Position numbers and translations under genes: made by a program | The notes under the pieces: model-generated | Databases searched by the model: none | Told to the model about the DNA's origin: nothing | What the model saw: the letters and a program-made list of their open reading frames with translations, nothing else | Shown: positions 6,212 through 20,601 of the stretch, one piece after another | Layout: every line of letters begins with the position of its first letter | How positions within the stretch are numbered: position 1 is the stretch's first letter | Virus record (IMG/VR): IMGVR_UViG_3300048032_000107 | Coordinates: 1 to 20,601 of that record | DNA from: a virus | Length of the DNA stretch: 20,601 nucleotides | Direction: 5' to 3' (one strand)

Positions 6212-7063
6212 ATGCCCTACATTGGTAATCAACCTGCACCCACTAATGTTGGTAGTGCTAATATTACAGATGGTTCTATAGTTAATGCTGACGTTAATGC
6301 TAGTGCAGCCATAGCCCTAAGTAAAATTAGTGGTGCTGCACCGTTAGCTAGTCCTACATTTACAGGTACAGCAACTGCACCTACCGTTAATGCAAGCACT
6401 GCACTACAAATTGGTGGTGTTGCTGTTACATCTACTGCTGCTGAATTAAATATACTTGACGGAGTGACTTCTACTGCAGCAGAGTTAAACATCTTAGATG
6501 GAGTAACTTCTACTGCCGCTGAACTTAATATCTTAGACGGTGTTACATCTACAGCAGCAGAACTAAATATTCTTGATGGAGTAACTTCAACGGCTGCAGA
6601 ACTAAACAAGCTAGATGGTTATACAGGAGCAGTTGCTGATCTTAATAGAACAGACGTAACTACAGAAGGTTTATCAGAAGCAAGTAAAGTTGTGACTGCA
6701 GACAGCAACGGAGTTGTTTCATTTGACAACGGAACTGTTGAGGAAAGTACTGCCATTACATCTAGTTCAAATGCAGCTACGATTAACCTACGTGATGGTA
6801 ATGTATTTACACACACATTGTCCGAAAACGTAACATACACATTTAGTAACCCTGCAGCATCAGGCAGAGCATCTGCTTTTATTCTAAAGATAACACAGGA
6901 TAGTTCAGCAAGAACTATTACATGGCCTTCAAGCGTTGACTGGGCCGCTGCTACCGCACCAACAATAACTGCTACTAATGCAGGTGTAGACGTATTTGGT
7001 TTTATGACGGTTGACGGTGGTACAACTTATTACGGATTTACGCTTGGACAAGCACTGGGGTAA
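6212..7063 (+). CDS. Repeat tail fibre, cassette A
   Basis: This 283-residue fibre begins MPYIGNQPAP, a start I recall from many marine phage fibres, and continues through a linker with SAAIALSKISG to five exact 13-residue units TSTAAELNILDGV (residues 73-137; the last unit reads LNKLDGY). The C-terminal part (138-283) is a beta-rich domain with ATINLRDG, TITWPSSVDW and the closing GFTLGQALG. That part is nearly the same as the C-terminus of the fibre gene at 9579-10778, so the two are paralogues. A clear AAGGAGAG ribosome binding site precedes the ATG. It is followed 6 bases later by a six-module fibre gene, a pairing repeated in cassette B. It probably forms a trimeric shaft plus a tip or adaptor domain (inference). 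Confidence 0.78.
   Translation: MPYIGNQPAPTNVGSANITDGSIVNADVNASAAIALSKISGAAPLASPTFTGTATAPTVNASTALQIGGVAVTSTAAELNILDGVTSTAAELNILDGVTSTAAELNILDGVTSTAAELNILDGVTSTAAELNKLDGYTGAVADLNRTDVTTEGLSEASKVVTADSNGVVSFDNGTVEESTAITSSSNAATINLRDGNVFTHTLSENVTYTFSNPAASGRASAFILKITQDSSARTITWPSSVDWAAATAPTITATNAGVDVFGFMTVDGGTTYYGFTLGQALG
6428..6622 (+). repeat. Five tandem 39-bp units encoding TSTAAELNILDGV
   Basis: Five contiguous in-frame 39-base units at 6428, 6467, 6506, 6545 and 6584. Units 1-4 encode the identical 13 residues, and unit 5 changes I to K and V to Y. Nearly every synonymous position varies between units (for example GAATTA, GAGTTA, GAACTT and GAACTA for Glu-Leu). Confidence 0.95.
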
Positions 7064-9578: not shown

Positions 9579-10778
9579 ATGAGTAAAGCAAGAGATTTAG
9601 CTAACTTGATGTCAACTGGCAATGAGTTGGCAGATGGAAATATTAGTGTTGCTGAAATAAATGACTTAACGGCTACGGCTGCTGAGTTAAATATTATGGA
9701 TGGTGTTACTGCTACTGCAGCAGAGCTAAACTTTGTTGACGGTGTTACATCTAATGTCCAGACACAGGTAGATACTAAGCAACCTTATGCTACAATTGCA
9801 GTTACTGTAGTGAACTCTGGCGGCAATAAGTATGCTCTTGATGGCACTGTACAGCAACTTGCTTTACTTACTCCTTCAACAACATATCGTTTTGATCAGT
9901 CAGATAGTTCTAACTCAGGACATCCCTTACTATTTAGTACAACTTCAAATGGTACACATGGTGGTGGTAGTGCATTTACTACGGGTGTTACTACTGTAGG
10001 TACAGCAGGTAGTGCAGGAGCTTACACACAGATTAAGCTTGAGCAAGACACGCCAAGTACTTTGTATTACTATTGTTCGGCACACTCAGGTATGGGTGGG
10101 GAAGTAAATAAAACTATATCTAAACTATCAGACTTAGGTATTACCTCTACTTCTACTGAGTTAAACATATTGGATGGAGTCACATCTACTGCTGCAGAGC
10201 TTAACATACTTGATGGCGTAACAAGTACAGCAGCAGAATTAAATATACTAGACGGTGTAACAAGTACTGCTGCAGAGCTTAACATCTTAGATGGTGTTAC
10301 ATCTACTGCTGCTGAATTAAATAAATTAGATGGCTTTACAGGTGCAGTAGCAGACCTTAACAGAACAGATGTAACTACTGAAGGAACAACAGAGGCTAGT
10401 AAAGTTGTAACTGCAGATAGTAATGGTGTTGTGACATTTGATAATGGTAAGGTAGAAGAAAGCACTGCAGTTACATCTTCAAGTAATGCAGCTACAATTA
10501 ACTTACGTGACGGTGATAACTTTACCCATACATTGAGCGAGAATGTAACATACACGTTTAGTAATCCTGCAGCGTCTGGTAAGGTATCTGCCTTTACACT
10601 TAAAGTAATACAAGACTCTTCTGCAAGAACAATTACGTGGCCCTCTAGTGTAGATTGGGCGGCAGCTACTGCGCCAACAATAACTGCTACTTCAGGTGGT
10701 GTTGATGTGTTTGTATTTACAACATATGATGGTGGAACTACGTATTATGGATTTACTGCTGGACAGGCAATGGGTTAA
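9579..10778 (+). CDS. Repeat tail fibre with cupredoxin-like domain, cassette B
   Basis: This 399-residue fibre starts MSKARDLANL, carries two TATAAELN units (residues 31-56), a cupredoxin-like domain (about 72-182), five more 13-residue units (189-253) and a C-terminal domain (254-399) closely matching the cassette A fibre, ending GFTAGQAMG. The middle domain has strands around YRFDQSD (103-109), GHPLLFS (114-120) and LYYYCSAHSGMGG (162-174). His115, Cys166, His169 and Met172 match the His, Cys, His, Met ligand order of type 1 copper proteins such as plastocyanin. Cassette A lacks this domain. The ATG follows a TAAGGAT site 10 bases after the chaperone gene. The fibre role is well supported. 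Copper binding is inferred from motif order only. Confidence 0.8.
   Translation: MSKARDLANLMSTGNELADGNISVAEINDLTATAAELNIMDGVTATAAELNFVDGVTSNVQTQVDTKQPYATIAVTVVNSGGNKYALDGTVQQLALLTPSTTYRFDQSDSSNSGHPLLFSTTSNGTHGGGSAFTTGVTTVGTAGSAGAYTQIKLEQDTPSTLYYYCSAHSGMGGEVNKTISKLSDLGITSTSTELNILDGVTSTAAELNILDGVTSTAAELNILDGVTSTAAELNILDGVTSTAAELNKLDGFTGAVADLNRTDVTTEGTTEASKVVTADSNGVVTFDNGKVEESTAVTSSSNAATINLRDGDNFTHTLSENVTYTFSNPAASGKVSAFTLKVIQDSSARTITWPSSVDWAAATAPTITATSGGVDVFVFTTYDGGTTYYGFTAGQAMG
9669..9746 (+). repeat. Two 39-bp TAAELN units before the cupredoxin-like domain
   Basis: Two in-frame units encode TATAAELNIMDGV and TATAAELNFVDGV (residues 31-56). They are variants of the 13-residue unit found downstream at 10143-10337, so the intervening 133 residues interrupt or were joined to the repeat series. 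Confidence 0.88.
9792..10124 (+). other. Cupredoxin-like domain segment within the fibre
   Basis: This encodes residues about 72-182 of the cassette B fibre. It contains a His in a strand preceded by Asn-Ser-Gly (His115) and, about 50 residues later, Tyr-Tyr-Tyr-Cys-x-x-His-x-x-Met-Gly-Gly (Cys166, His169, Met172). In plastocyanin and pseudoazurin the C-terminal ligand loop has the same Cys, His, Met order, with slightly longer His-Met spacing in plastocyanin. An extra His (127) lies in a Gly-rich loop. Confidence 0.65.
10143..10337 (+). repeat. Five tandem 39-bp TAAELN units in the cassette B fibre
   Basis: Five contiguous units encode residues 189-253. The first reads TSTSTELNILDGV, three are exact TSTAAELNILDGV and the last is TSTAAELNKLDGF. 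The number and terminal LNKLDG variant match the cassette A array, so the array was already present before the cassette duplicated. Confidence 0.93.
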
Positions 10779-12753: not shown

Positions 12754-13020
12754 ATGGAAAATGATAGCTGGCACTTAAACAAGTCTGTACCAATTACATT
12801 AATCTTTGGGTTAATTGTTCAAGGTGCAGCTATTGTATGGACAGTTTCTATGATGATGTCTGACATTGAAGATAATTCAGAAGAAATTGTAGCACTAGAA
12901 GAACGTATGGGTAGATTAGAAACATCTGTACATAACCAAGCAGTCTCACTTGCCCGTATAGACGAAAACATAAAAGCAATAAGATCATCAGTAGAAAAGA
13001 TGGCGAATAATGACCAATAG
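12754..13020 (+). CDS. Small single-span membrane protein with coiled coil (holin- or spanin-like)
   Basis: This 88-residue protein has one clear membrane segment (about residues 12-35, with ITLIFGLIVQGAAIVWTVSM). An acidic, heptad-like helix follows from about 36 to 83 (EEIVALEERMGRLETSV and IDENIKAIRSSVEKM). No lipoprotein box or cleavable signal is visible. The layout of an N-terminal anchor plus a coiled coil fits several phage lysis proteins (small holins, or inner-membrane spanins of the Rz type) as well as small virion membrane proteins. It follows the last fibre gene with a CAAGGAC site and precedes a second membrane protein gene and, one gene further, a cell wall hydrolase. A lysis role is therefore plausible but unproven. 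Confidence 0.6.
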   Translation: MENDSWHLNKSVPITLIFGLIVQGAAIVWTVSMMMSDIEDNSEEIVALEERMGRLETSVHNQAVSLARIDENIKAIRSSVEKMANNDQ

Positions 13021-13031
13021 GATTTGCCACA

Positions 13032-13499
13032 ATGATAGAAGTATTAGCTTTAGCAGGTGCAGTTACTAAGATAGCTGGTGCAGTTAGTTCTGCAGTTAAA
13101 GCTGGTAGTGATGTAGCAGACTTATTGCCTCACTTTGGTAAGTTAGCAAAGTTAGATAGTGAGATACAGTTAGCTGAAAAGGGTGCACATAAAGGCCCAT
13201 TAAGTAGACTGAGTTCATCTGAAGAAGAAGGCTTTGCAATAGCACAAGCTAAGATGAAACATAAAGAGTGCATGGACGAGTTAAGATCAGCTTGTCAGTT
13301 GTATGGACCTCCCGGTATGTGGGATTTAGTTGTAAAAGAACAAGCAGCGGCTAGACAAAGGCACAAAGAAGCGTTAGAATTACAAGCAAAGCAAAGAGAC
13401 AGATTGTTCTGGGGTATATCACTAGCAATAGGAATAGTAATATTCGTAGGTGGTTTAGCGGTAATGATCTGGGGTCTTAACGAAGTAGTAAATGGATAA
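13032..13499 (+). CDS. Small protein with C-terminal membrane segment
   Basis: This 155-residue protein begins with a hydrophobic Ala/Gly-rich amphipathic stretch (residues 1-30). It has a charged helical middle with KMKHKECMDELRSACQLYG, a conserved-looking YGPPGMWDLV turn (91-100), a long basic/acidic helix (101-124) and one strong membrane span (about 126-149). I recall related proteins in marine phage genomes but no assigned function. It starts 11 bases after the previous small membrane protein gene, so the two probably work together. Possible roles are a lysis regulator or holin partner, or a membrane-contacting virion protein. The Pro-Pro-Gly-Met-Trp turn is the best handle for family searches. 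Confidence 0.6.
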   Translation: MIEVLALAGAVTKIAGAVSSAVKAGSDVADLLPHFGKLAKLDSEIQLAEKGAHKGPLSRLSSSEEEGFAIAQAKMKHKECMDELRSACQLYGPPGMWDLVVKEQAAARQRHKEALELQAKQRDRLFWGISLAIGIVIFVGGLAVMIWGLNEVVNG

Positions 13500-13504
13500 A
13501 CAAT

Positions 13505-16171
13505 ATGGCAAGATTTAGTACGGCACAAAAAGAAACTCTACGTAAAATGGCTGAAGAAGGTAAGCTCGCTACATCTCAGCTACAAAACATTATGCGTAAT
13601 GCTCAAGAGTTAAAGAAGCTTAATAAGGGTGGTGTTGTAGGCTTTCAAGCTGGAGGTATGCCTGAGGCTCCTGGGTCTGCTCCAACTCCCGTACAAGACC
13701 CTGGTGAATTTAAAGAGGGTGATGATCAGACTGAGTATGACGCCAAGAAAGCTGCTTTTGATCAGTATAAAGCAGACTTAAAATCTTATCAAGATAGAGT
13801 TAAAGCCTATAAGGATTACAATCTAAAGAGTACACAAGAGCTTGCTCAGTCTGCAATAGCAGATCCTACTTCTTTAGTTACTTCAGCTGATGTACAAACT
13901 ATAGATCCTGATACTACAGGTACAACTCTAGCTACAGGTGCAGGTCAGATTACTGGGGATATACCACAGATAACTGCTGAAACTATTACAGCTGAAACTG
14001 CTGCTACACCTAAAGATATCGCTACTAGTAAAGTCACCGCCTCCACTTCACAGCAAGGGGTTCAAGAAGCTTTAGAGGGTGTTGAAAGAGATTATAAACA
14101 AGTAAGCGCTGCAGAAGCAGGTTTTTTACCACCTCCACGAGGTGCGATAGTTACTCAAGCCTTTGAAACTTTTCATAACCCTACTACAGGTGAAGTAGTT
14201 ACAGTTAATACGGGGGGTTATACTGCACCAGAAGGTTTTGTAAAAGGTAAACCCCAAGGTAAATTTAAAACTGGTGGTGTAAAAGCAGCTAAAGGTACGG
14301 TCTCAGATAAAGCTCAAATTACTGCAGCAGAAGGTGAACTATCCACTGAAGCAATGGCAGAAGGACAAAGATTTGAAGAGGATCGCCTTGATCTTGTCTC
14401 CGAAGATCCAAAACTACAGGTAACAAAAGATCAACTTGCAGAAGCTAAAGGTAAAAATCTTGAGGCTGTAAAAGCAGAAGTAGCTGAGTCAGAAACCCTT
14501 GAAAAAGCTGTAGCTGAAACTGCAATAGTTCAGCCTGAAGAGTTACCACCACCCGCACAGATTGCAGAAGATCAGATGGCACAAGCTCAGGCTATGACAA
14601 TGGATGGCTTGACTGATGATGCCACTGCAGTTGCGGTAAAGCTAGAAAAGTTTACTGTAGATGATGGTACACTTGCTCTTGCTATGCAAGGCGATGTAGG
14701 TGCACTAGACACAGTTGAAGGTCAGCTATCACAGTTGATGAAAGACTTTGATGATGGTACTCCTGCATGGGCTGCTGGTGCTATTCGTGCAGCTAACGCA
14801 ACTATGGCCTCACGGGGTCTGGGTGCATCCTCTATGGCAGGTGCAGCTATCCTACAGGCAGCTATGGAATCTGCGTTACCTATTGCACAGCAGGACGCAG
14901 CTACGTTTGCTAACATGAACATGGCTAACCTAAACAATCGTCAACAAACTGCATTGACTAATGCAGCAGCACAACAAGGTCTACAGTTACAGAACCTATC
15001 TAATGAGCAACAGACTGCTTTAGCAAACAGTTCTAATGCATTTGCATTGCAATCACAAAACTTGTCTAACATGCAAGCTACAGTTATTGCTAATGCTCAG
15101 ATTAAGTCTGCAATGCAGGGTCAAAACTTATCTAATGAACAACAATCTAACCTAGCAATTGCTGCACGTTTTGCTGAAGTATCTAATCTTAACTTAACTA
15201 ACAAGCAGCAGACTGCACTACAAAACAATTCATCACAACTGCAGACTAACCTTGCTAACCTTAGTAGTAAGTCACAGGCTTACATTACTAATGCTAATCT
15301 GGGTGCATCATTGCAAGGACAAGTGTTGAGTAATGAACAACAAGTAGCAATTGGCAATGCTGCACGGTACTCTGATGCTTCTAATATTACATTTAGTGCT
15401 GAACAACAGGCTCAGTTGCATAACTCATCTTTGATGCAAACAATTGGCTTAGCTGAACTTAGCTCAGCACAAGCTGCTACATTACAGAATGCTGCCCAGA
15501 CTGCAGGTATGGATATGGCTAACCTCAGCAACCGTCAGCAAGCGGCAGTTGAAAATGCTAAAGCATTCTTGCAGATGGACTTAACTAACCTGAGTAATGA
15601 GCAACAAACTGCTATGTTTAAAGCTCAAGCTACTCAGCAAGCTATTCTTTCAGATACTGCTGCAGAAAATGCTGCTAAACAATTTAATGCTTCCTCTGAA
15701 AATCAAACTAATCAGTTTATGGCAAACCTTAAGAGTCAGACTGAACAGTTTAATGCAGCTCAAAAAAATGCTGTTAATCAATTTAACGCTGGTGAAAAAA
15801 ATGCTGCGGCTAAGTTTAATACTCAGGTAGAAGAGCAACGTAATCAGTTTAATGCCTCTAATGCACTTGTCGTAGCACAGGCTAATGCACAGTGGAAACA
15901 AAATGTAACTACATTAAATACAGCTGCTCAGAATGAAGCTAATGCTGCAGATGCAGCGGCTGCTAATGCTTTTACTTCTACGACAATGGATCAGGTATGG
16001 CAACGTGAGCGTGACCTTATGGATTATGCTTATAAGTCAAGTGAGTCAGATAAAGACAGAGCTTTAGATATTGTACTTGCAGATAAAAAGTATGATGAGT
16101 ATCAAGAAGCTAGAGATGATCAAGAAGAAACTAACAAGTGGCGTTTAGCAACATCTTTACTACTAGGTTAA
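13505..16171 (+). CDS. Large Ala/Gln/Asn-rich repeat protein, probable internal virion protein
   Basis: This 888-residue protein has three parts. The N-terminus (1-60) has a helix and a KGGVVGFQAGG motif, followed by a long low-complexity Ala/Thr/Glu-rich region to about 400. Residues about 405-474 (including AIRAANATMASRGLGASSMA) look like a folded helical bundle. Residues 475-716 are eleven gapless 22-residue units (consensus N-L-S-N-x-Q-Q-x-A), followed by six 11-residue units with QFNA (725-790) and a charged helical end. Cys is absent. The 22- and 11-residue periods are those of hendecad, right-handed coiled coils. It opens the block that also holds the cell wall hydrolase and two large proteins, where T7 encodes its ejected core proteins. 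A fibrous, ejected or tape-measure-like role is inferred; the family is not identified. Confidence 0.72.
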   Translation: MARFSTAQKETLRKMAEEGKLATSQLQNIMRNAQELKKLNKGGVVGFQAGGMPEAPGSAPTPVQDPGEFKEGDDQTEYDAKKAAFDQYKADLKSYQDRVKAYKDYNLKSTQELAQSAIADPTSLVTSADVQTIDPDTTGTTLATGAGQITGDIPQITAETITAETAATPKDIATSKVTASTSQQGVQEALEGVERDYKQVSAAEAGFLPPPRGAIVTQAFETFHNPTTGEVVTVNTGGYTAPEGFVKGKPQGKFKTGGVKAAKGTVSDKAQITAAEGELSTEAMAEGQRFEEDRLDLVSEDPKLQVTKDQLAEAKGKNLEAVKAEVAESETLEKAVAETAIVQPEELPPPAQIAEDQMAQAQAMTMDGLTDDATAVAVKLEKFTVDDGTLALAMQGDVGALDTVEGQLSQLMKDFDDGTPAWAAGAIRAANATMASRGLGASSMAGAAILQAAMESALPIAQQDAATFANMNMANLNNRQQTALTNAAAQQGLQLQNLSNEQQTALANSSNAFALQSQNLSNMQATVIANAQIKSAMQGQNLSNEQQSNLAIAARFAEVSNLNLTNKQQTALQNNSSQLQTNLANLSSKSQAYITNANLGASLQGQVLSNEQQVAIGNAARYSDASNITFSAEQQAQLHNSSLMQTIGLAELSSAQAATLQNAAQTAGMDMANLSNRQQAAVENAKAFLQMDLTNLSNEQQTAMFKAQATQQAILSDTAAENAAKQFNASSENQTNQFMANLKSQTEQFNAAQKNAVNQFNAGEKNAAAKFNTQVEEQRNQFNASNALVVAQANAQWKQNVTTLNTAAQNEANAADAAAANAFTSTTMDQVWQRERDLMDYAYKSSESDKDRALDIVLADKKYDEYQEARDDQEETNKWRLATSLLLG
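14927..15652 (+). repeat. Eleven gapless 22-residue (66-bp) repeats
   Basis: Residues 475-716 divide into eleven units of exactly 22 residues with no indel; most units start Asn-Leu-Ser-Asn-x-Gln-Gln. Units 2-4, 5-7 and 8-10 form a 66-residue (198-bp) super-period: units 2, 5 and 8 carry Asn-Ser-Ser in the middle; units 3 and 6 end in Gln-Gly-Gln; units 4, 7 and 10 carry the related AARF, AARY and AKAF. At DNA level the units are diverged. Confidence 0.9.
15677..15874 (+). repeat. Six gapless 11-residue (33-bp) repeats
   Basis: Residues 725-790 form six consecutive 11-residue units: KQFNASSENQT, NQFMANLKSQT, EQFNAAQKNAV, NQFNAGEKNAA, AKFNTQVEEQR and NQFNASNALVV. Phe is invariant at position 3. 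They follow the 22-residue array after an 8-residue linker, and 11 is exactly half of 22. Confidence 0.9.
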
Positions 16172-16182
16172 GGAAATAAAAT

Positions 16183-16974
16183 ATGTACGAAAAAAATTTA
16201 CTTACAGCTAGAGAGGCAGCTGAGCTTAGATTTCAACAAAAAGGTTTGACTAACTCAAGAAAACCTAGTAAGATCTTAGGTGATCAAGATGCTGAAAAAC
16301 TTCTACCAAGTTCTAGTCAAGGTTTGGTTCCTGATAGTCGAAATAAATCTGAAGGGACATCTTCTGGTGGTTTTGGTAGCCGTGTTTTTGATATGGTTTA
16401 TGCATCTAATAAGGAACTAGACGCTAAAGTTTTGGAAAGACTTCGCCCTTTACCTAAGCCAGACACTGAGGTACTTCCAGCTAAGGACTACCCTGAATCT
16501 ACTTCAGAGGTAGGTGATGCTTTAGTTTTATCTCCTAAAGATGTGGATCTATTAGAGCGTGTAGTCTGGGCTGAAGCTGGTACTGAAGATGTAAATGGTC
16601 GTAATGCTGTTCGTGGTGTGATATTAAATAGAATTGCTTCTGATAGATTTCCTAACACACTCCAAGAAGTTTTAACAGAGTCAGGTCAATTTGAACCTGT
16701 AGGGAAAGTTGGTGGTAATATAGGTAAAATAAAAGCTCCTGCAACCAGATTAGATCAGCAATACTTTGAGTTACTACAGTACTTAAGTGATGGTATAGAT
16801 GCCTCACAGGGAAGTACTTTCTTTGTAAATAAAACTACAGCTAAAAGAAGGGGTACAGATTTTAGTGGGCCTAACCCTTTAGAGGTAGGTAGGCATACTT
16901 TTTATTCTGGGTTAGCGGGGCAAGAGCCAGTAGTAGTTCCAAAGTATTCTCATAATGTTGTTATAAAAAGGTAA
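16183..16974 (+). CDS. Cell wall hydrolase, SleB/Hydrolase_2-like, possibly virion-borne
   Basis: This 263-residue protein should cut the glycan strands of peptidoglycan. The catalytic domain spans about 117-243. LLERVVWAEAG holds the expected catalytic Glu (Glu131), followed by GRNAVRGVILNRI, FPNTLQEVL, then SGQF (168-170 is GQF) and a C-terminal His/Phe/Tyr strand (RHTFYSGL). This order matches SleB-type hydrolases. The N-terminal 115 residues are polar, low in complexity and lack a signal peptide, so they may be a virion-docking or linker region. The gene lies 11 bases after the 888-residue repeat protein and before three probable virion proteins, not beside the small membrane genes. It may therefore be an entry enzyme, a lysis enzyme or both. 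The ribosome binding site is AAGGAAAT. Confidence 0.8.
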   Translation: MYEKNLLTAREAAELRFQQKGLTNSRKPSKILGDQDAEKLLPSSSQGLVPDSRNKSEGTSSGGFGSRVFDMVYASNKELDAKVLERLRPLPKPDTEVLPAKDYPESTSEVGDALVLSPKDVDLLERVVWAEAGTEDVNGRNAVRGVILNRIASDRFPNTLQEVLTESGQFEPVGKVGGNIGKIKAPATRLDQQYFELLQYLSDGIDASQGSTFFVNKTTAKRRGTDFSGPNPLEVGRHTFYSGLAGQEPVVVPKYSHNVVIKR

Positions 16975-16980
16975 ATAAAA

Positions 16981-17496
16981 ATGTTTAACGCACCTATACC
17001 TGGACAGTCTTTAACCTCAGAGCCTAAAAATTATGCTTGGGAAAGACCCCCTCAATACGATCTACCTGAAGAAGCTTTAATGTTTCATTTAGAGAAGTTA
17101 GATGAACCAAAAAAAATTGAGGCTGTTGTAACTCTTTTATCTTTAGGTCTTGACATAAAAACTTTGACAGAAGGTATCCTGAGAAATGGGGTAGCTGAAG
17201 GTAGGCATAGTATTGATGTCTCTCTATTAATCGCACCAGTAGTGCACGAATTTATTCTTGGTGTAGCTAAAAGTGCTGGGGTAGATTATGATGAAGGCCT
17301 TGACGAAGGCGAAGAAATAGACATCGAGGGTACTCGAAACCAGATTAGTAAAAAGAAAGCAGCTAAAATTCTAGCTGAGTATGAGAAAGAAGAAGAGATA
17401 GAACTACCTGAGGTACCTAAAGAGGAGCCACAGGTAGAAGAAGAGGTTGAAATAAAAGAACAACCTAAGGGTTTAATGGCTAGAGGAGTTGTATAA
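16981..17496 (+). CDS. Conserved-looking virion-associated protein with acidic C-terminus
   Basis: This 171-residue protein opens MFNAPIPGQSL and then has a folded helical part (about 25-100) with ALMFHLEKLDEPKKIEAVV and HSIDVSLLIAPVVHEFILG (75-93). It ends in a Glu/Lys/Pro-rich tail (about 115-160) that looks disordered or coiled. No membrane segment or enzymatic motif is seen. I recall similar openings and the SID-x-S-x-x-IAP-x-x-HE pattern in marine phage structural proteins, without a known role. It starts 6 bases after the hydrolase stop and its own stop overlaps the next start as TAATG. Its arginine codons are AGA, AGG or CGA only, the opposite of the capsid gene. It is probably a small scaffold-like or internal virion component. 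Confidence 0.62.
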   Translation: MFNAPIPGQSLTSEPKNYAWERPPQYDLPEEALMFHLEKLDEPKKIEAVVTLLSLGLDIKTLTEGILRNGVAEGRHSIDVSLLIAPVVHEFILGVAKSAGVDYDEGLDEGEEIDIEGTRNQISKKKAAKILAEYEKEEEIELPEVPKEEPQVEEEVEIKEQPKGLMARGVV

Positions 17497-18368
17497 TGGG
17501 ATTTTATACAGGTGCAGTTCTAGGTCTTCAAGATATTAGAGAAGAAGAACAACGTAAGATTGAGAATGAAATAAGGGCAGCTAATTCAGAGAGACTCCAA
17601 AGAGCTGATGAAAGAGCTGAAGCTATGTTTAACTTAAATCAGCGTACAGCAAAGTTTGAGTTGGCTAAATCTTTTTCAGAAAGATTAGGTAATTTTAGCG
17701 GGTCTGAGGCTTCTCCAGAAGATAAACAAAACTTAACTCTCCTTAGTTCAAGACTTAGTGGGGTTGAGGGTGCAGATAAATTTCTTGCTCCTTTTGTTAC
17801 TAACCCAAATTTAGCTACTACTGCTATGAAATCAATTTTAGAGGCGGAAGAAAAGGGTGAAGGCAGAGTACAAATAGGTGGTGAAACTCTTATGAACCTA
17901 TTAAATGTAGTTGGCCTAGAAAATCTTCAAGATACTGTATCTGATTACAGGGGTATGGGAGATATTCTGGCTGCAATATCCGGTAGTGAGGATGAATTTA
18001 ATGCTTTAGTTAATGCTGCAGCTGAGTCTAGAAGTACATCCACACTTGCGGTTGATATAGATCCTAGTGTATATGAAAGACCTAATGCAGACTTTCTTGA
18101 ACAACAAGAAAAAATTTATCTAGCTGCCATAAAACAAGCGGCAACTCTGCATCTAAACTCAGGTGCGTTCGAGGGGGATTCAGTAACTTTTAGTAAAGTT
18201 AATGAGGCTCTTAAAGACGCTAAACCTGACTATTTACCACCAATACTAATACAAAGATACGGTGAAGCTGCGTTTAATGCCATGAGTGGTATGTCTGACC
18301 CCATGTATACAAACTTAGAGAATAATATTTTTCTAAAACCCTACTTGCAAATGTGGCAGACGCAATGA
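17496..18368 (+). CDS. Helical internal virion-type protein
   Basis: This 290-residue protein is not recognised by family. Residues 12-62 form a long charged helix (DIREEEQRKIENEIRAANSE, then ERLQRADERAEAMFNLNQRT), probably a coiled coil. The rest is mixed helical and soluble, with a Leu/Gly-rich middle (about 125-165) and a C-terminus with FLKPYLQMWQTQ. No signal, membrane span or catalytic motif is visible. It starts inside the previous stop (TAATG) and its stop overlaps the next start (ATGA), so three consecutive genes are translationally coupled. This points to subunits of one complex made in set proportions. Position and size suggest a core or ejected protein comparable in place, not proven in homology, to the middle of the T7 gp14-gp16 set. 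Confidence 0.6.
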   Translation: MGFYTGAVLGLQDIREEEQRKIENEIRAANSERLQRADERAEAMFNLNQRTAKFELAKSFSERLGNFSGSEASPEDKQNLTLLSSRLSGVEGADKFLAPFVTNPNLATTAMKSILEAEEKGEGRVQIGGETLMNLLNVVGLENLQDTVSDYRGMGDILAAISGSEDEFNALVNAAAESRSTSTLAVDIDPSVYERPNADFLEQQEKIYLAAIKQAATLHLNSGAFEGDSVTFSKVNEALKDAKPDYLPPILIQRYGEAAFNAMSGMSDPMYTNLENNIFLKPYLQMWQTQ

Positions 18369-20601
18369 ACAAAACTTTAAATGAACTTTTAATGGAAGAG
18401 TTGGAAAAAAAGTACCAACCTGCATCTCCTTTAGATTTAAATGCTACTCAGCCTGAAGTTCAGCCTGAACCTCAACCTGAACCTATGATTGAGGAGCCTC
18501 AAGAAAAACTTTCTGAGTTTGAATTAGCTTCGTCAAATGTCTATGATGAAATTATTGTACCCTACATGGAAGCTAGATGGGGTATGAGTTATGTGAACGA
18601 AGATAGAGAAGAAGTTGTTTCTAGATTTATGAACAACATGCGAGGTTTTAGTGGGGGTAATACTGTTAGGGCTGGTAAGGAACTGTCGTGGTTAGCCGGT
18701 GTATCTGACGAGGATAGAGTTAAGGCTGGTGCTGCTTATTCTTTTGTAGATCAGGACATGGCAAACCTATACAGCAGTGATACGACACTAACTGAAAAAG
18801 CTTCAGGTACATGGGACTACCTAAGGCAGGGTGTATTGGACCCCATCAATATTGTTGGAGGTTTTGTAGGTAAGATTGCAGGGGGAGCTACCTTTAGGCT
18901 TGGATCAGCAGCTGCACGTAAGGCTGCTATAAATGAGTATGGTAGAAGAATAGCTAAGGGTGCTACAGAAAAAGCAGCTACAAGAGCTGCAAATAAAGTT
19001 TTCTTAAAAAGTTCTAAAGAGGCTTCAGAAGCTCTGGCAAAAGAAACCGTAAAAAAGAATGCAACAAAGAGTGCTCTTAATAAATTAGTTACTAGGTCTG
19101 GACTTGCAGAGGTAGGTGCAGCTACTGCTGTGGATATGGTAGCTGGTGCTGTTACAGACTATGGTTATCAAAAAGCTATGTTAAAAACTGGTGCTCAGGC
19201 AGAGTACAGTGAGCTTCAAACCTTCTTATCGGGTGCGTTTAGTTTTGCAGCAGGAGGAATCTCTGCAACTACTGTAGCACTGAGAGGAACATCAGGTTTA
19301 AATCTTGCTAGTAAAGCTACACCAAAGCCAACATCAGAGGGTATTGGAAACGAACTTGTAGCTTCAACAAAGTTTTTAGTTTCTAACATAAAGTCTTGGG
19401 ATTCAAAAGTTACTTCGGGTAGACAGCTAGATGAAATACCAGATAGTTCTTTCTTCGCATTAATAAATGGAGATGAAGAAGGTGGTTGGAAGGGTTTAAA
19501 AGATATCTTTGCAGAACGTAATCTACAATTTACTAATCCAGATATGTATGAGAATAAATCGGATTGGATTACTGATGTAATCATGGACATGCCACAAGCA
19601 GAGGCTGATAATTTTATAAGTTCTTTTAAAGATATAACTGGTATCACTAAAGCTTATGATAATAAGGACTTAACCTTAGAAACTTTTGCTGATGTTTTTG
19701 CTAGAAAAGCTAGTGACTTAGGTAAGAACTTAGGTACTATAAGAAATGTTGGTGCTGTTTTAGGTGATAGTAATATAGAAGAGTATACCTTTAATGATTA
19801 TGCAAAAGCTCTAGGACTTACTGAAGGTAAAAAAGTAGACCCTAGAATTAATGAATCTTCTGATCTACAGAACAATTTAATTCGGGGTATTGTTTCTAAC
19901 TTAGGTACGACAGCTTTAAACGTAAGGGGTTGGGGTCTAGCTACTGCTACCAACAGTGCATCTGATTTGGTACAGGCTCAGATGTTAGCTTTAACTGGAA
20001 ATACTAGAGCTGCTTCACATCTAATTGCAATGCAAGGACAAAAAGTACGCAACCTAGTTGACAACAATACTACACTAGAAGTCTTTTTAGACTACTTAAA
20101 TACAAGACCAGATGTAGGTAAAGCTATGTCTAGGGAAATCTCTGGTGGGGTTGAACAAAAAATAAAATTAGACTTTAATAAGTCTTTTGCAAACCAGAAG
20201 TTTACAGAGTTTGTAGACGGTGTACAAGCTATCAACATGGTGTATGCTCAAGATACTATGACCAAAGCTCAAGAGTTTATGTATCAACTGGATAAAAATA
20301 TACGTCTACAATTTGATATGACTTACTCAGAAATGTTAGCTAATGATGATGCCTTTAAAATTATGAGTAGCGATCTTTATAAGTTAGTTGAAAAAAAGGC
20401 TGTAGATGAAACAGAACGTGCAGTATTTAGTAGGTCTTTTAAAGATGCCGATAACCAATTCATTAGAGGCGTAGCCCGTGTCATAGAAGATGTAAGAAAT
20501 GTACCTGGGATAGGATACCTTGCGCCTTTCGGAAAGTTTTTTAATAACAGCGTCTCTAACATATCAGACCATACAGGTATTACACTTGCGATGCGAGCTA
20601 T
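18365..20601 (+). CDS. Very large internal virion-type protein, 3' end outside the window
   Basis: The frame opens at an ATG overlapping the previous stop (ATGA) and stays open for at least 745 codons to the edge, so the protein is partial. It begins MNKTLNELLMEELEKKYQPA, then a Pro/Glu/Gln linker (about 30-47) and a folded part with PYMEARWGMSYVNEDREEVV. Around residue 155 comes LDPINIVGGFVG, followed by basic Ala-rich helices and Gly/Ala-rich hydrophobic segments (GAFSFAAGGISATTVAL) that could insert into membranes. The remainder is long and helical, with PGIGYLAPFGKFF near the edge. No lysozyme motif is seen in the visible part, in keeping with a separate hydrolase gene upstream. Huge, helical, last in a virion cluster: this fits an ejected internal virion protein. 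A polyvalent multi-domain protein is the alternative. Confidence 0.68.
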   Translation, partial: MNKTLNELLMEELEKKYQPASPLDLNATQPEVQPEPQPEPMIEEPQEKLSEFELASSNVYDEIIVPYMEARWGMSYVNEDREEVVSRFMNNMRGFSGGNTVRAGKELSWLAGVSDEDRVKAGAAYSFVDQDMANLYSSDTTLTEKASGTWDYLRQGVLDPINIVGGFVGKIAGGATFRLGSAAARKAAINEYGRRIAKGATEKAATRAANKVFLKSSKEASEALAKETVKKNATKSALNKLVTRSGLAEVGAATAVDMVAGAVTDYGYQKAMLKTGAQAEYSELQTFLSGAFSFAAGGISATTVALRGTSGLNLASKATPKPTSEGIGNELVASTKFLVSNIKSWDSKVTSGRQLDEIPDSSFFALINGDEEGGWKGLKDIFAERNLQFTNPDMYENKSDWITDVIMDMPQAEADNFISSFKDITGITKAYDNKDLTLETFADVFARKASDLGKNLGTIRNVGAVLGDSNIEEYTFNDYAKALGLTEGKKVDPRINESSDLQNNLIRGIVSNLGTTALNVRGWGLATATNSASDLVQAQMLALTGNTRAASHLIAMQGQKVRNLVDNNTTLEVFLDYLNTRPDVGKAMSREISGGVEQKIKLDFNKSFANQKFTEFVDGVQAINMVYAQDTMTKAQEFMYQLDKNIRLQFDMTYSEMLANDDAFKIMSSDLYKLVEKKAVDETERAVFSRSFKDADNQFIRGVARVIEDVRNVPGIGYLAPFGKFFNNSVSNISDHTGITLAMRA

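Follow-up and report, generated by a model that had tools for sequence, protein, structure and literature searches.

A stepwise variable 11-residue repeat array in a putative ejection protein of HMO-2011-type marine podoviruses

The window analysed here (positions 1 to 20,601 of IMG/VR record IMGVR_UViG_3300048032_000107; 20,601 nucleotides) is part of the genome of an HMO-2011-type marine podovirus. Few marine phages are more abundant than those of this type. Among the genes of the window is an ORF, introduced here as the rod ORF, in which a long repeat array is enclosed by conserved anchor motifs and which is followed on the same strand by four further genes (Table 1).

Table 1. Layout of the rod ORF and of the genes following it. 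Positions are those of the window, residues those of the rod protein.
Feature	Positions	Strand	Residues	Remarks
Rod ORF	13505..16171	+		888 aa; holds the repeat array
N-terminal region	13505..14692	+	1-396	Pro/Gly-rich; length highly variable in homologues
N-anchor	14693..14926	+	397-474	conserved (alignment); PAWAAGAIRAANATMASRGLGASSMAGAAILQAAMESALPIAQQDA...; Gly/Ala-rich; helical in low-confidence AlphaFold2 models
Eleven 22-residue units	14927..15652	+	475-716	unit = two hendecads; consensus NLSNxQQxALxNA
C-anchor motif	15644..15685	+	714-727	ILSDTAAENAAKQF; marker for measuring array length
Linker	15653..15676	+	717-724	8 residues; without indels across homologues
Six 11-residue units	15677..15874	+	725-790	Phe at each position 3 (QFNA)
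W-anchor	15884..15901	+	794-799	NAQWKQ; the 11-residue lattice ends here
C-terminal tail	15902..16168	+		helical; length variable; terminal Peptidase_S74-like chaperone domain in few relatives
Cell wall hydrolase (PF07486)	16183..16974	+		follows the rod gene, in a slot of variable content; present in 6 of the loci fetched
171-aa partner protein	16981..17496	+		homologue in 236 of ~260 loci, always downstream and on the same strand
290-aa protein	17496..18368	+		third module gene; position conserved, sequence divergent
Large protein	18353..20599	+		at least 749 aa, leaves the window; position as T7 gp16-like internal virion proteins

By tblastn, homologues of the rod ORF were found in 26 phage records (HMO-2011, CRP, HTVC, Rhizobium, Vibrio and Aeromonas phages), and further ones in 254 IMG/VR stretches, the scans of IMG/VR enlarging the homologue set to more than 240 loci. 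The profile anchors were present in 22 named phages, with weak N-anchor scores in CRP-3 and CRP-235. Sequence homology places the rod ORF of the window in the phage1322_25 family, with which it shares N-anchor, array and C-terminal region. The eponymous member is the HMO-2011 homologue, a hypothetical protein of 706 aa, and CHOED_013 is annotated as "similar to phage1322_25". These direct homologues have the same lattice, are annotated only as hypothetical and differ in the number of 22-residue units, which is six in HMO-2011, two in CHOED and eleven in the window. Neither Pfam nor PHROGs yielded a family covering the rod when searched with the window proteins, the modules of HMO-2011, CHOED and MQM1, and eight long homologues. 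A PDB profile search with the rod gave only weak, unconvincing matches (FimA, E = 0.008; KMP-11, E = 0.06). A structure search of BFVD with a low-confidence model returned four significant matches, 24-42% identical and probably sequence homologues; two of the matches are named, neither name bearing on rod function, and the rest were not meaningful. Our literature search found no paper on the rod repeat or its length steps.

In the window protein, according to the original prediction, an array of eleven units, each of exactly 22 residues, is joined by an 8-residue linker to six further units of exactly 11. This layout is reproduced by the profile hits, spaced 10 x 22 and 5 x 11 residues (cut-off 9 bits per unit; shuffled sequences reach 3.5 bits at the 99th percentile), and autocorrelation of the rod protein over lags 1-99 gave strong peaks at 22, 44, 66 and 88. 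Likewise, the 242 residues of the array, described as gapless, align without a gap in 19 group A sequences, 18 of which are relatives with 58-95% identity to the window along the entire fragment. Being free of indels among relatives, the 8-residue linker is itself part of one fixed 11-residue lattice. The 66-residue super-period, in which units 2-4, 5-7 and 8-10 were thought to match as triplets, stood only in its first part. Units 2-4 do match units 5-7, with mean BLOSUM scores of 54 and 56 for the very similar pairs 3/6 and 4/7 and a moderate 34 for the pair 2/5, but units 8-10 are not clearly like either set, the pairs 5/8, 6/9 and 7/10 scoring 21, 23 and 29 where about 24 is usual. A permutation test of the overall lag-3 excess among units gave a p of about 0.02. 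These scores are evidence for one old 66-residue duplication, which would have involved units 2-7, and not for three matching triplets. In the DNA, the units are too diverged for the 22-residue array to be detected by Tandem Repeats Finder.

Array lengths were determined as the distance between two flanking motifs, xLPIAx upstream and ILSDxxAxNAxxQF downstream, using regular expressions and then, on all ORFs, position-specific profiles. In 212 distinct ORFs the N-to-C anchor distances are 26, 37, 59, 81, 103, 136, 147, 213, 257, 323, 367 and 433 residues. All twelve equal 4 modulo 11, and they correspond to arrays of 0.5, 1, 2, 3, 4, 5.5, 6, 9, 11, 14, 16 and 19 units of 22 residues. A recount with regular expressions only yielded the same length pattern. 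With each of the twelve lengths free modulo 11, chance agreement would have had a probability of ~11^-11. At least 16 changes of array length have to be placed on a 69-row tree, and none of them leaves the 11-residue lattice. The distances from C-anchor to W-anchor (69, 80, 91, 102, 113 and 124) are 3 modulo 11 in 214 of 215 cases. The one off-lattice length belongs to L246, which has an apparent extra residue ~100 residues past the C-anchor (NSNLAIEQSN versus NSNLVEQSN), perhaps a sequencing error. As a control, we took other parts of the same proteins: 124 different lengths were counted for the N-terminal part and 34 for the C-terminal tail, with every residue class modulo 11 represented, so the lattice is not explained by indels being rare throughout these proteins. 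A constraint on the period itself had been proposed from the gapless array of the window, and the twelve lengths together with the changes on the tree bear this out. Homologues with varying unit length and frequent indels were looked for as counter-evidence; what varies is the unit count, the unit length being constant.

Steps of 22 residues are departed from in CRP-9 and CRP-207 (5.5 units) and in the homologue L262 (0.5 units). In CRP-9 (L084) and CRP-207 (L264) the 11-residue step adjoins the N-anchor. Rods of different viruses being longer or shorter by steps of 22 amino acids, and only rarely of 11, a modular build is suggested.

The composition of the arrays fits a helix, and the hendecad helical periodicity anticipated for the window was recovered. 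The best hydrophobic period is 3.67 residues (11/3), and proline does not occur once in 31,768 array residues, versus 6.1% in the N-terminal regions. The same residues comprise 31% Asn plus Gln, 13% charged residues and 1.3% Gly. On an 11/3 wheel, unit positions 2, 10, 13 and 21 (L, L, A, L) line up in a hydrophobic stripe that includes Gln at position 6 and Gln/Ala at position 17, the Gln at 6 and the Ala at 13 being near-invariant. As in hendecad coiled coils, the hydrophobic period is 11 residues, and it is kept through the length changes. We read the array as a continuous hendecad alpha-helical rod, and favour a continuous helix because proline is absent and because 11-residue steps occur in CRP-9, CRP-207 and L262.

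With regard to the other counter-evidence named, disorder or a non-helical fold, both AlphaFold2 monomer models are helical but of low confidence (mean pLDDT 51), and in them the 22-residue array is broken near NLSN, about every 22 residues, into short helices, the 11-residue part forming one long helix. Taken at face value, such models would describe units of ~17-residue helices linked by NLSN turns, i.e. an alpha-solenoid or chain of helical hairpins with a long continuous helix only in the 11-residue part. Unit position 3, which is S, T, D, N or G in 100% of groups A and B, could be a helix cap, and the predicted breaks near NLSN could be real. We nevertheless regard this architecture as rather unlikely: pLDDT within the array is about 30-66, group C carries other residues at position 3 (24%), and no unit position ever holds a proline, a residue that turns and helix N1 sites usually tolerate. 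Moreover, length changes of 11 residues better suit a hendecad lattice than a 22-residue helix-turn unit.

As to the role of the rod protein, its gene is the first of a series, i.e. rod gene, (variable slot,) 171-aa gene, mid gene and large gene, whose order is conserved downstream of the capsid, adaptor and tail genes. The variable slot is taken by an annotated toxin-activating lysine-acyltransferase in HTVC115P and by a cell wall hydrolase in CRP-603. Neither Pfam nor PHROGs gave a match for the 171-aa protein, and Pfam, PHROGs and a PDB profile search gave no family match for the large one. A cluster that follows the tail genes and continues into a large gp16-like ORF is the arrangement of podovirus ejection genes, which are likewise clustered with the large gene last (PMC8954989). 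The C-terminus of the CRP-738 orthologue (L089, 4510-6924) matches PHROG 4287 "DNA ejection protein" (E = 2e-13) and PHROG 6121 "virion structural protein"; the PHROG 4287 match concerns this one orthologue and lies in its C-terminal region, of which a widespread chaperone domain is part. Because of the conserved neighbourhood and of this C-terminus in one orthologue, we infer that the rod protein is likely an ejected internal virion protein, which is the role that best fits the comparison of genes and sequences. A literature search for virion proteomics of the rod protein in relatives found none.

At its C-terminal end, the CRP-738 orthologue carries a Peptidase_S74 chaperone domain, which is typical of fibres, and similar tails are present in L125, L132 and L133. 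Together with the tail-fibre-like genes upstream in the window, this could point to the shaft of a trimeric fibre or appendage, displayed on the virion surface and assembled via an intramolecular chaperone. Such a shaft is, in our opinion, unlikely, as only 4 of 217 homologues have the tail in question, the same region also matches the DNA ejection protein PHROG, and the rod gene pairs with the downstream module rather than with fibre genes. The variable Pro/Gly-rich N-terminal region and the Gln in the hydrophobic stripe also appear unlike fibres. The HMO-2011 rod homologue carries a different C-terminal extension, and the rod C-terminus seems to be exchanged between phages.

Combining these observations, we propose, with a probability of roughly 0.6, that the ORF product is an internal virion protein of the ejection or pilot type in a short-tailed phage, and that its middle part is a continuous, nearly straight hendecad helical rod, assembled with other copies into a coiled-coil bundle or a tube. 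According to this proposal, several rods would pack side by side via the stripe of unit positions 2, 6, 10, 13, 17 and 21, and with such packing only phase-keeping insertions would be tolerated. The protein and the products of the downstream genes would exit the head together, either ahead of the DNA or along with it. The Asn/Gln-rich, weakly charged, proline-free helices of the rod protein would then refold into part of a conduit across the cell envelope, with the unit number setting the reach of the rod.

Among podoviruses, the closest parallels are gp14/gp15/gp16 of T7 and gp7/gp20/gp16 of P22, which share with the rod module the cluster after the tail genes, the very large last ORF and the short tails (PMC8954989). 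The ejection proteins of T7 and P22 are described there as helical and of variable sizes, but they show no sequence similarity to the rod by Pfam, PHROG or PDB searches, and the section consulted describes no quantised repeat array in an ejection protein. A parallel for the array itself is the H protein of phiX174, a decameric helical tube with hendecads and inward-facing Gln/Asn that has been proposed to serve as DNA conduit across the cell wall (PMC7354561). Hendecad helices rich in Gln and Asn are common to both, and the Asn/Gln-rich positions of the array may be compared with the amide side chains of such a pilot tube, although here tube and oligomer are hypothetical. The two differ in that eleven heptads follow the three hendecads of H, whereas the 11-residue lattice of the rod is unbroken throughout and varies greatly in length, and in that phiX174 is a microvirus and the rod carrier a dsDNA podovirus. 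The phiX174 H tube and the repeats of tape-measure proteins (see below) may serve as models for how the rod works, kinship left aside. In its most far-reaching form, our proposal would have the HMO-2011-type phages and relatives eject an amide-rich hendecad helical tube of ~1-19 units, its length evolving by whole 22-residue steps (33 angstrom if fully helical), as a modular, tape-measure-like DNA conduit that does without a long tail; this form we put forward only tentatively. Our understanding of how short-tailed phages span the cell envelope is incomplete, and the fixed-step rod lengths offer a natural series, from ~1 to 19 units, for asking which role length plays in DNA delivery. For structural biologists the rod is a defined target, and it shows in clean form how helical phase constrains the length of a protein across deep divergence.

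Repeats of 11 and 22 residues with 11/3 periodicity are also the hallmark of apolipoprotein- and synuclein-type helices. By analogy, the array, which is amphipathic and weakly charged and in a profile search weakly matches KMP-11 of kinetoplastids (E 0.06), could be a long amphipathic membrane helix that aids envelope crossing without a coiled coil. The near-invariant Gln at position 6 and Ala at position 13 would make the stripe weak for membrane binding, and apolipoproteins retain proline at their unit boundaries, unlike the array. We therefore consider a membrane helix very unlikely.

The original prediction had suggested that the array could set a physical length, and had proposed a comparison of repeat number with tail or periplasm-spanning length. 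Between phages, the unit number follows neither host nor genome size in any simple way. Phages of FZCC0023 have 5.5 or 6 units and SAR11 phages 2 or 9, while those of a single Rhodobacteraceae strain, FZCC0040, have 3 and 5.5 (the host comparison set includes CRP-3 and CRP-235 with their weak N-anchor scores). Named phages range from 2 to 11 units at similar genome size (52.7-56.2 kb). Short tails have been reported for HMO-2011-type phages (PMC9038755) and for MQM1, in which the tail measures 9.2 nm (PMC10410586) and the rod has 2 units. With differing phages of one strain and with short tails, a simple match of rod length to host periplasm or tail length is not supported. As a simple rule, a match of rod length to the host was rejected because phages of one strain differ, and the lack of a relation to host identity also speaks against a simple periplasm ruler. 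In such short-tailed phages a fully extended rod of this size would find no room in the tail as a tape measure.

Tape-measure proteins of siphophages contain 11-residue units with F/W markers, variable in number, and change in length by whole units (Belcaid 2011, PMC3271669); six F/W residues spaced exactly 11 apart are found in 69 of 217 rod homologues. Tape-measure proteins set the length of a long tail, whereas the rod phages are short-tailed and their main array is a 22-residue Asn/Gln repeat; a long tail whose length follows the repeat number, as expected with a tape-measure protein, is absent from these phages. That the rod acts in tape-measure manner as an assembly ruler or scaffold in the head, its unit number setting some virion dimension, is very unlikely in view of the short tails and of the range of unit numbers at similar genome size. 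Least credible of all is that the 11- and 22-residue steps are a mere by-product of recombination with phase unselected: unequal exchange does alter tandem arrays by whole units, for which no selection is needed, and units 2-4 and 5-7 resemble a 66-residue duplication, but none of the 212 ORFs has an off-lattice net array length, as against 124 and 34 lengths outside the array, and in the DNA the units have diverged beyond detection by Tandem Repeats Finder.

Just upstream of the rod gene (12754-13499) are two small ORFs, one of 88 aa with weak XhlA-like and holin-like matches and one of 155 aa matching PHROG 32327 (unknown function). Further upstream, degenerate tandem repeats of 39 bases (13 residues), of the type STAAELNILDGVT, are common to two tail-fibre-like ORFs (6212-7063 and 9579-10778), in which they occupy positions 6431-6606 and 10146-10333 of the window.
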